From Ligilactobacillus cholophilus (GTDB lineage Bacteria; Bacillota; Bacilli; Lactobacillales; Lactobacillaceae), in NCBI RefSeq assembly GCF_030389495.1, contig NZ_CP127832.1, forward strand, positions 62,001 to 126,000: a DNA stretch of 64,000 nt, given 5' to 3'. The notes beneath the pieces are model-generated. The model was given only the letters and a program-made list of their open reading frames with translations, was not told the DNA's origin and ran no database searches. This document shows, piece after piece, positions 12,893-44,214 of this stretch. Within the stretch, counting starts at the first letter, position 1, and the number at the start of each line of letters is the position of its first letter. Made by a program: the position numbers and the translations under genes.

Positions 12893-12960
12893 TTAAAAAT
12901 AATATTGCATGCATAATTATTTCATGTTATCATGATATCTGTTATACAACATGAATTTAA

Positions 12961-12985
12961 CTCTGGCTCAGCAAATGAACCAGGG
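12961..12985 (+). promoter_or_regulatory. leader hairpin before rpmE2
   Basis: CTGG-TCA and TGA-CCAG arms around a GCAAA loop form a hairpin a few bases before the AAAGGAG ribosome-binding site of rpmE2. L31 mRNA leaders with autoregulatory hairpins are known in Firmicutes; whether this is one is inferred from position and shape. Confidence 0.45.
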
Positions 12986-13003
12986 CAAAGGAGCGAAATT
13001 AAA

Positions 13004-13255
13004 ATGAAACAAGGAATTCACCCAGATTACCATAAAGTTGTATTTATGGATTCATCAACAGGTTACAAGTTTTTATCTGGCTCAACAGCTACATCAAACG
13101 AAACTGTTGAATGGGAAGATGGTAACACATATCCATTAATCCGTGTTGAAATTTCAAGCGACTCACACCCATTCTACACAGGTAAACAAAAGTTTACACA
13201 AGCAGACGGTGTTGTCGATCGTTTCAACAAAAAATATGGCTTTACAAACAAATAA
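13004..13255 (+). CDS. rpmE2: 50S ribosomal protein L31, type B
   Basis: This 83-residue protein is the zinc-independent (C-minus) L31 paralogue: the Cys pairs of the zinc form are absent, while [17 protein letters not shown] and [14 protein letters not shown] are diagnostic. ATG 13004 is supported by AAAGGAG at 12988-12994; the longer frame from 12932 reads through the leader hairpin and is not used. It is followed by its own terminator. In B. subtilis the type B paralogue is Zur-controlled; no Zur box was noticed here and no type A copy is in the window. Confidence 0.95.
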
Positions 13256-16221: not shown

Positions 16222-16650
16222 ATGTTAAAGATTAAAAAAACAGTTAATCTTGATCAGGAATTGTATAAAGATGCTGTTTCAATTAGAGAACAAGTCTTCG
16301 TTAGTGAACAAGGTATCCCAATTGAATTAGAAATGCAGGGTGAAAATGGTCCTTGTTATTACGTAGGATATGTAAATGATGTTCCAGTTGCGACTGCTCG
16401 TGTTGTGCTTGATGGACAACAATGGATAATCCAACGAATGGCAGTATTACCAGATTGGAGAAATCGTCATTTTGGTTCAAAAATTATCGAAGCAATTGAA
16501 CATGATGCAAAAGAAAATCATGTAAATAAAATTACATTACATGCTCAAGACAATGCGGAAAAGTTTTATCAAAAACTAGGGTATAAAATACAAGGTGAGA
16601 GTTTTAATGAAGTTGAAATTCCTCATCATGTGATGACAAAAGAATTGTAA
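16222..16650 (+). CDS. GNAT-family N-acetyltransferase (ElaA/YjcF-like)
   Basis: This 142-residue acetyltransferase has the early IREQVFVSEQGIP segment typical of the ElaA/YjcF branch. Acetyl-CoA motif A (QRMAVLPDWRNRHFGSKII, with R-x-x-H-F-G in place of the usual Q/R-x-x-G-x-G/A) and a C-terminal AEKFYQKLGYK follow. The substrate is unknown. ATG 16222 follows GAGGTG. It is monocistronic between the permease and the lemA leader. Confidence 0.9.
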   Translation: MLKIKKTVNLDQELYKDAVSIREQVFVSEQGIPIELEMQGENGPCYYVGYVNDVPVATARVVLDGQQWIIQRMAVLPDWRNRHFGSKIIEAIEHDAKENHVNKITLHAQDNAEKFYQKLGYKIQGESFNEVEIPHHVMTKEL

Positions 16651-16675
16651 ATTTGATAATTACATGTTATTATAA

Positions 16676-16878
16676 CGCTATGCGATGAGTCGAGAATAGC
16701 CAATAGTATTTTTACTATCGTGTTGCGGCACAAGGCTAAATCGAATGGCACACATAAACTGCCGGATTGCAGCGTGTGATCTATTTTTAATGTGGATAAA
16801 AAATAGATTATTTTGATGTTAGTTATCAAAGTACCAACAAGAGGTGTGAGAACTAATTGTTCTCACACCTTATTTTAT
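16676..16878 (+). ncRNA. candidate structured leader RNA upstream of lemA-htpX, ending in a terminator
   Basis: This stretch has no gene but much nested pairing. A stem TAGCC/GGCTA (16697-16701 with 16734-16738), extended by TCGA/TCGA, encloses two hairpins (ATAGTA/TACTAT and GTG/CAC). A stem CACAC/GTGTG (16749-16753 with 16774-16778) encloses CTGC/GCAG. A long A/T hairpin follows at 16779-16808. It ends in a 12-bp terminator (16842-16853 with 16859-16870). GTGTGA at 16774 can alternatively pair with TCACAC at 16863 in the terminator, as in an attenuator or riboswitch. I cannot match it to a known class. Confidence 0.6.
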
Positions 16879-16896: not shown

Positions 16897-17451
16897 ATGA
16901 TTTTTATTATTTTAATAATTTTATTAGTTGTTATTATTGGTGGATATGTTATTTTATACAATAATTTGCAAACTGCAAAGGTTAATACAGAAGAGGCTTG
17001 GAGTCAAATTGATGTTCAGTTACAACGTAGAAATGACTTAATTCCTAATTTAGTAGAAGCCACTAAAGGATATGCTAAGCATGAACGTGAAACGTTTGAA
17101 GAAGTTGTTAAATTAAGAAATAAAATTATGACATTGCCTGCTGATGCACATCAAGAAAAAATGGAAATTTCTAACCAGTTAACAGATGCTTTAAAATCAA
17201 TTTTTGCACTTTCTGAAAATTATCCTGATTTAAAAGCTAGTCAACAATTTTCACAATTACAAGAAGAACTAACGAATACTGAAAATAAAATTGCATACTC
17301 ACGGCAACTATTTAATAGTTCTGCAGCAATTTTTAATAAAAAGTTGGTAGTCTTTCCATCAAATTTGGTGGCTAAATTTAGTCATTTAACTAAGATAGAT
17401 TATTTACAAGTCCCTCAAGATGTTAAAGATGTGCCACAAATTCATTTTTAG
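16897..17451 (+). CDS. lemA: LemA family protein
   Basis: LemA proteins have one N-terminal membrane helix and a long helical-bundle domain; their function is unresolved. The 184-residue product has the membrane helix at about 2-23, then the diagnostic ROW of NLQTAKVNTEEAWSQIDVQL, RRNDLIPNLVEATKGYAKHE and NKIAYSRQLFN. The N-terminus should face outside. ATG 16897 follows GGAGTGGG; the upstream frame from 16813 runs through the terminator hairpin and is rejected. It is paired with htpX 14 bp downstream, a common arrangement in lactobacilli and streptococci. Confidence 0.93.
   Translation: MIFIILIILLVVIIGGYVILYNNLQTAKVNTEEAWSQIDVQLQRRNDLIPNLVEATKGYAKHERETFEEVVKLRNKIMTLPADAHQEKMEISNQLTDALKSIFALSENYPDLKASQQFSQLQEELTNTENKIAYSRQLFNSSAAIFNKKLVVFPSNLVAKFSHLTKIDYLQVPQDVKDVPQIHF

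Positions 17452-41305: not shown

Positions 41306-44214
<2,909 letters not shown>

Follow-up and report, generated by a model that had tools for sequence, protein, structure and literature searches.

The closest described relatives of the RNA studied here are catalogued in Rfam under three names: RF02840 (Ref68/Lacto-3), RF01732 (asd/MarS) and RF03066 (COG3610-DE). In the output of Rfam 15, none of these entries is assigned to a clan. The title of RF02840 names no function, while RF01732 has been linked to the gene mga through work in group A Streptococcus. Transcription of MarS is reported to be independent of its neighbouring genes (PMC5613026). For the pneumococcal copy, srf-17, the annotation gives 140 nt (PMC6212727); Northern blots detected the group B streptococcal copy, whose stated length is 200 nt (PMC4448216). 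The length given for srf-17 fits the distance from the start of the motif to the end of the T run in the S. pneumoniae copy (locus L213). That the RNA is a catalogued sRNA is thus already known; what is new here is a predicted pairing of its 5′ tail with helix 90 of 23S rRNA. In the open-access literature searched, we found no report that RNAs of this family pair with 23S rRNA.

The copy analyzed here lies at positions 16676-16878 of the window, by which we mean the whole 64,000-nucleotide stretch of Ligilactobacillus cholophilus DNA. Its neighbours, both named from their translations, are a GNAT-type gene whose end is at 16650 and, on the plus strand at 16897-17451, a lemA-like gene. The original prediction described the region as gene-free and structured, with a terminator before lemA, and these features hold. 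No plausible gene was seen when the list of open reading frames was read by eye, the predicted fold has an energy of -66.2 kcal/mol (z -6.9, equalled by none of 200 shuffles), and a hairpin of 13 pairs resembling an intrinsic terminator occupies plus-strand positions 16841-16871. The same prediction erred in stating that the RNA fits no known class. It had made this claim depend on there being no match to a known Rfam family, and cmscan assigns window positions 16681-16800 to RF02840 with 74.2 bits (gathering cut-off 44), covering model positions 1-124 of 124.

A promoter-like site precedes the RNA at 16645-16673 on the plus strand, comprising a -35 element (TTGTAA, 16645-16650), a 17-nt spacer and an extended -10 element, (TG)TATTAT, with its hexamer at 16668-16673, although promoter-like sites in the region overall show no clear excess over shuffles. 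This site places the start of the RNA near 16680; with the terminator, its end falls near 16878. At about 190 nt, and with a promoter and terminator of its own, the RNA is a free sRNA; the lemA-like gene is regarded as a neighbour outside its function. Among 27 named loci compared, the window copy is closest to that of Ligilactobacillus aviarius (72% over 183 nt).

Comparison with the three families reveals a common plan. RF02840 matches the window RNA over the full length of its model, with the tail and helices P1, P2 and P3 alike, but this model stops before P4, P0 and the terminator that the window RNA possesses. RF01732 has the same 5′ tail, the same P0-P4 arrangement and likewise its own promoter and terminator, with a P1 shorter than that of the window RNA. 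RF03066, found at loci of the genus that we label g2, carries the same tail in a version with C at position 7 (C7). On the window copy, RF01732 scores 22 bits (E 0.032), under its gathering cut-off of 84, and RF03066 is absent from the matches at E ≤ 5. The gathering cut-off of RF03066 (73.5 bits) is reached in the three g2 loci scanned (L281, L287 and L289; 110-117 bits), the match in L281 starting a few nucleotides inside the tail.

These similarities extend across the order. At E ≤ 0.001, 223 of 395 Lactobacillales genomes have a single match to RF02840 (118 above the cut-off), and RF01732 is found in 89 of the 395 (68 above the cut-off). A covariance model built from 17 Enterococcaceae copies alone (R1) matches window positions 16680-16836 with 57.6 bits and finds 82 of 83 non-seed sources, the window included, at E ≤ 1; 71 are found at E ≤ 0.01 and 80 at full length. 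Its matches span all six families sampled, Streptococcus asd loci among them. Of 19 Streptococcus loci, 16 are matched at full length with 15.5-29.6 bits, several of them weakly, yet at the expected places; L123 and L124 are matched at the 5′ end (the tail) only, owing to insertions, and L148 is missed. About 270 nt in L123 (genome G312) and 150 nt in L124 (G180) separate the tail from the asd match downstream of it, as would result from an insertion of DNA inside the RNA.

Matches to different models also fall on the same places, some of them outside the streptococci: RF02840 and RF01732 coincide in G122, G142, G123, G241 and G374, and RF03066 and R1 coincide in the three g2 loci. RF02840 has no match in any of the 14 g2 genomes; R1 has one at E ≤ 1 in nine of them and none at that threshold in the other five. 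Judged from sequence, the three entries behave as one family with a common covarying fold, and the shared tail together with that fold points to common ancestry of the window RNA with RF01732. We regard it as nearly certain that the RNA is both a free sRNA and a member of this single family. A copy in Sedimentibacter sp. SX930 (L236, MUZD01000001.1) is identical over the printed stretch to the Trichococcus copy L199 and probably represents assembly contamination.

The family fold consists of the 5′ tail, then P1, then the closing stem P0 enclosing P2, P3 and P4. In the window, P1 occupies 16697-16738 and has the stem UAGCC/GGCUA with two inner hairpins, as given by the fold computed with the tail open and by the RF02840 alignment. 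The main domain at 16746-16836 is delimited by P0 (UGG 16746-16748 with CCA 16834-16836), as matched by R1. Within it lie P2 at 16749-16778 (CACAC/GUGUG, apical stem CUGC/GCAG, loop CGGAUU), P3 at 16779-16808 with the loop motif UGUGGA at 16791-16796, and P4 at 16809-16833, the last from the R1 match and the tail-open fold; all are on the plus strand. A word of the UGUGGA/UGUGAA type is present in the P3 loop in 100 of 100 loci, five word forms being permitted.

Covariation supports these stems. In an alignment fitted to the model (A2; 81 distinct sequences), which leans towards the structure, 91.5% of cells pair compared with 55.9 in shuffled alignments, 870 cells are changed on both sides compared with 237.9, and the covariation score is 0.752 compared with 0.198, slid controls reaching at most 0.096. 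Some two-sided change occurs in all 32 pairs, an uninformative figure given the shuffled mean of 30.2. P0 is 99.6% paired, mainly with CG, GC, AU and UA types, and P1 (helix 1) has 82.9% of cells paired. A seed alignment made with MAFFT, and so not fitted, gives a covariation score of 0.383 compared with 0.192 (reached by none of 500 shuffles), 86.6% paired cells compared with 76.0, and two-sided changes in 23 of 33 pairs compared with 13.1; its count of further pair types is ordinary, being reached by 60 of 500 shuffles. The first of two pairings proposed from the sequence, CACAC at 16749 with GTGTG at 16774, corresponds to P2, which is 98.9% paired across 81 distinct sequences.

The second pairing fared differently. 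It joined GTGTGA to TCACAC in the terminator over 6 nt as the alternative state of a switch; it can be drawn here, but it is not conserved. Watson-Crick complements of at least 6 nt linking the GTGTGA segment to the 80 nt that follow are present in 13 of 98 loci compared with 346 of 1960 shuffles, and those of at least 7 nt in 2 of 98 compared with 80 of 1960. The covariation check suggested with the original prediction thus bears out the stems and tells against the switch, and an attenuation switch was rejected.

The wider loci bear on the same question. We compared 100 of them, namely the window copy and 99 others with flanks, hand-picked to spread over genera, with neighbouring genes named from translations. 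Families were recognized by identical or close named loci: f1 as Lactobacillaceae, f3 as Enterococcus, f4 as Streptococcus, f5 as Trichococcus-like and f7 as Marinilactibacillus-like. Downstream genes differ between lineages and are often on the opposite strand. Upstream genes are mostly common within one family (e.g. a udk-like gene in Enterococcaceae), and two upstream gene clusters extend over f2, f5 and f7. In 92 of 98 loci (363 of 1960 shuffles), the last base of a -10 hexamer lies 5-7 nt ahead of the RNA; the hexamer is extended by TGN in 74 of 98 and is accompanied by a -35 element with at least four of six matches in 51 of 98. By a simple scan, 94 of 98 loci have a terminator-like hairpin preceding a T run, although some of these picks are weak; L056, L057, L060 and L105 gave none. 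The members of RF02840 thus show the -10 elements, terminator-like hairpins and variable downstream genes of an independent sRNA.

The region had been put forward as either an attenuating RNA or a free sRNA, and only the latter stands. The possibility of a cis-acting attenuator or riboswitch of lemA-htpX draws on the gene order: lemA-htpX follows the RNA in the window and L053, and does so with another gene in between in L055, and a lemA-like protein (cluster 25) is the second downstream gene in Streptococcus loci L118, L120 and L143. In most of the 100 loci, however, the downstream genes differ or are reversed, and PMC5613026, PMC6212727 and PMC4448216 describe the relatives as independent transcripts. 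Neither a conserved downstream gene nor a conserved exclusive pairing was found among the loci. A leader of lemA-htpX or of any other fixed gene was therefore rejected on account of the variable downstream genes, and we consider a cis-acting regulator of this kind exceedingly improbable.

The 5′ tail of the free sRNA, AUGCGAUGAGUCGA (16680-16693, plus strand), can pair at 14 of 14 positions with 23S rRNA, forming 13 Watson-Crick pairs and one G.U pair. The proposed partner is UCGGCUCAUCGCAU (43822-43835, plus strand), which we take to be E. coli U2506-U2519, in helix 90 of the peptidyl-transferase region. By the structure line of the Rfam LSU model, this target consists of one base (U), the whole 11-nt 5′ strand of the helix and two bases (AU). 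The 3′ strand of the same helix, GCGGUACGCGAGCUGG, is at 43883-43898 on the plus strand, and the tail resembles it minus its bulges.

All 82 copies in A2 agree at tail positions 2-6, 8, 10, 13 and 14, and conservation stops at position 15, so that the conserved block and the 23S target end together. Outside A2, position 14 is changed in G286 and G102, and L149 carries one additional base. The changes A9G, U11C and C12U still pair with 23S rRNA, whereas G11, present in four f5 copies and five C7 copies of genus g67, is a mismatch. In the free RNA the tail is only partly open: its mean unpaired probability is 0.49 compared with 0.34 elsewhere in the RNA, and is the higher of the two in 82 of 98 loci. 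Positions 11-14 can pair within the free sRNA, and in the window copy keeping the tail open costs 6.8 kcal/mol.

This long exact complementarity to rRNA exceeds chance. The tail-23S duplex has a predicted energy of -23.1 kcal/mol, equalled by none of 300 shuffles, and a 14/14 match with at least 13 Watson-Crick pairs arises in 1 of 60,000 shuffles on 23S rRNA, in two on 16S rRNA and in none on 5S rRNA. If wobble pairs are admitted without limit, matches of 14 pairs are not particularly rare (81 of 40,000 shuffles; 170 of 40,000 14-mers of the window). When 13 letters of the tail were searched against its own genome with up to two mismatches, 18 places were found. Six of them are antisense in the six 23S genes and share one identical single change. 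Two other one-mismatch places would pair at 13/14 and 12/14 positions, and both are opposite the gene strand, so that the site is missing from the mRNA of the gene there. The sole place outside 23S that pairs over positions 2-14 is on the strand opposite a PTS-like gene; because of this orientation, no known transcript carries the site.

Other candidate interactions were also considered. For loop 3, matches to rRNA of at least 8 nt are scattered over 16S and 23S with none standing out, and pairing of loop 2 with rRNA was rejected by eye. A small open reading frame in the tail, AUGAGUCGAGAAUAG, is readable here, but the Rfam consensus does not retain its stop codon, as judged by eye, and this reading was rejected.

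The tail also varies together with its proposed target. Tail position 7 faces a 23S base that we take to be 2513, which is A or G depending on the genome, its helix partner being U or C accordingly (21 copies). U7 can pair with A or G, while C7 can pair with G only. Tail position 7 was read in 130 genomes; 38 lack a 23S type, leaving 92 with both sites. Among these, A-type genomes have 38 U7 and one C7, and G-type genomes have 24 U7 and 29 C7; the 24 of 53 G-type genomes that retain U7 form a wobble pair and are uninformative. Full pairing over positions 2-14 is achieved in 81 of the 92 genomes with their own 23S type, compared with 57 of 92 with the other type.

The C7 tail of genus g2 led to the advance prediction that its 23S rRNA would be G-type, unlike that of the Lactobacillaceae examined before it. 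The prediction held: all 12 g2 genomes in which 23S was matched carry G, C7 itself having been read in eight of them; the thirteenth, G236, is without a 23S match. The remaining 17 genomes of this test in which 23S was matched are A-type. They include G286 (genus g17), for which the companion prediction failed, since it combines C7 with an A-type 23S. An order-wide pattern scan, which does not catch every C7 copy, identified C7 copies in 30 of 390 genomes, 25 of them G-type and five without a 23S match. Within genus g67, which belongs to another family, five of these 25 genomes (G214, G229, G266, G305, G341) have C7 with G, and their congener G373 has U7 with A. At the genus level the association is weaker (Fisher test, p = 0.014, with the genus of the window entered twice and relatedness not removed). 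Position 7 therefore tends to change in step with the 23S base, with G286 as an exception and with limited phylogenetic independence. Such a one-base compensatory swap seems to have been made by nature more than once. Overall, the complementarity and its co-change make it probable that the tail pairs with 23S rRNA.

The same resemblance between tail and helix could arise if the 5′ end mimicked the helix-90 3′ strand to bind a protein without any rRNA pairing, the candidates being a helicase, a modification enzyme or a ribosomal protein. Such mimicry would agree with a tail that equals the 3′ strand without its bulges, and with position 7, where C7 matches C and U7 mostly U. It is less easily reconciled with the omission of the bulged bases, where protein contacts would be expected, in favour of an uninterrupted complement. 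In addition, 24 of 53 G-type genomes keep U7, and the 3′-strand base is C in the three of these 24 that were read (G323, G352 and G006). We judge this type of mimicry to be improbable.

A further possibility is that the RNA is a trans-acting mRNA regulator of the MarS type, its 5′-end complementarity to 23S being incidental or serving some mRNA. According to PMC5613026, mga is lowered when MarS is deleted, and in vitro the RNA binds the mga leader, through nucleotides 88-89 and not the 5′ end. The UGUGRA of loop 3, present in every locus examined, appears to lie near the site mutated in that work. Regulation of mga was, however, studied in group A Streptococcus, leaving the conservation across six families unexplained, as are the shuffle statistics and the co-change with 23S rRNA. 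Published mRNA predictions reach -12.06 kcal/mol compared with -23.1 for 23S; the two values are not strictly comparable, as opening costs are counted in the former (IntaRNA) and not in the latter. On balance, regulation of mRNA as the explanation of the whole family is unlikely, if less so than mimicry of the strand. The two activities might also be combined in a sensor or sponge, in which binding of unassembled 23S rRNA, or of fragments of it, to the tail switches the action of the sRNA on mRNAs. The division of the RNA into separate parts, a 5′ tail for rRNA and another for mga, would suit such a device; an mRNA target common across families was not found reported, and we rate this combination lower still.

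The reading that we prefer, to which we give a probability of roughly 0.55, is that the free sRNA pairs with open helix 90 and serves as a trans-acting RNA chaperone in assembly of the large ribosomal subunit. The tail would bind the 5′ strand of helix 90 while the helix is open, in nascent or unfolded large subunits, standing in for the helix's own 3′ strand. Such pairing could hold or time the folding of the peptidyl-transferase region or prevent its misfolding, until a helicase or the finished fold displaces the sRNA. In the mature ribosome, helix 90 is internal, which counts against this reading. If the pairing takes place, a role in large-subunit assembly is somewhat favoured, and the complementarity and co-change of the tail suggest an RNA that acts on ribosomes rather than on a neighbouring gene. 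PMC4448216 reports that the group B streptococcal copy declines in late stationary phase, and likewise at pH 5.2, a drop that would fit growth-linked work. A marS deletion in group A Streptococcus left the growth rate in rich medium unchanged, according to PMC5613026, and the effect known for it acts by way of mga; both are points against a vital role.

Comparison with RNAs of other domains places the preferred reading in context. Box C/D and H/ACA guide RNAs and U3-type rRNA chaperones operate in eukaryotes and archaea. They share with the window sRNA a short exact complement to a functional rRNA site, a likeness in the way of working only, and we know of no guide enzymes of the C/D or H/ACA kind in bacteria. 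Another resemblance is to the GGA-loop sponges of the CsrB/RsmY type, as many copies have GGA in the apical P2 loop; unlike in those sponges, the loop varies, reading GUA, GCA or AGA elsewhere by eye. As a broader and more tentative proposal, for which we put the odds at somewhat less than even, lactic acid bacteria may have a conserved RNA that pairs in trans with the 5′ strand of helix 90 and so assists the folding of the peptidyl-transferase centre or sets its timing. It would be a bacterial counterpart of snoRNA-type rRNA chaperones, overlooked because target searches look at mRNAs. If true, a bacterial small RNA would act on rRNA much as snoRNAs do in eukaryotes and archaea. The most tightly conserved part of the RNA now has a testable candidate partner in the catalytic core of the ribosome, and, again if the proposal is true, the role of asd/MarS/Lacto-3 across the order would become testable by a one-base compensatory swap.

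The C-terminal domain of DbpA (PF03880) was considered as a missing counterpart of the sRNA. It is absent from five of five Lactobacillaceae and two of two Streptococcus genomes tested, but it was found in five of six other genomes that also carry the sRNA; domain and sRNA do not simply exclude each other, and the idea was rejected.

A search of 299 class-level genomes with R1 gave seven with a match at E ≤ 0.01, one of them (G570) outside Lactobacillales; this search overlooked Lactobacillales genomes with known copies and is therefore poor evidence of absence. The match in G570 was rejected as a full homologue, being a stretch behind 5S rRNA. It comprises a tail in the C11 form (L300:1602-1615, minus strand), 18 nt behind the 5S rRNA gene and just before a terminator-like hairpin in the rRNA-operon trailer. 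This sequence may correspond to the sRNA tail but act in cis, or it may be a chance occurrence.

Two observations on genomic position may be added. In five genomes from four Lactobacillaceae genera (L069 in G142, L071 in G302, L067 in G222, L087 in G374 and L084 in G358), the sRNA gene follows the helix-90 site of a 23S gene on the same strand, at a distance of about 2-4 kb. Elsewhere in the window, the ribosomal protein leader RF03156 (L31-Firmicutes) matches 12961-12993 with 36 bits (cut-off 33.3), within an open reading frame at 12932-13255 and close to its start.
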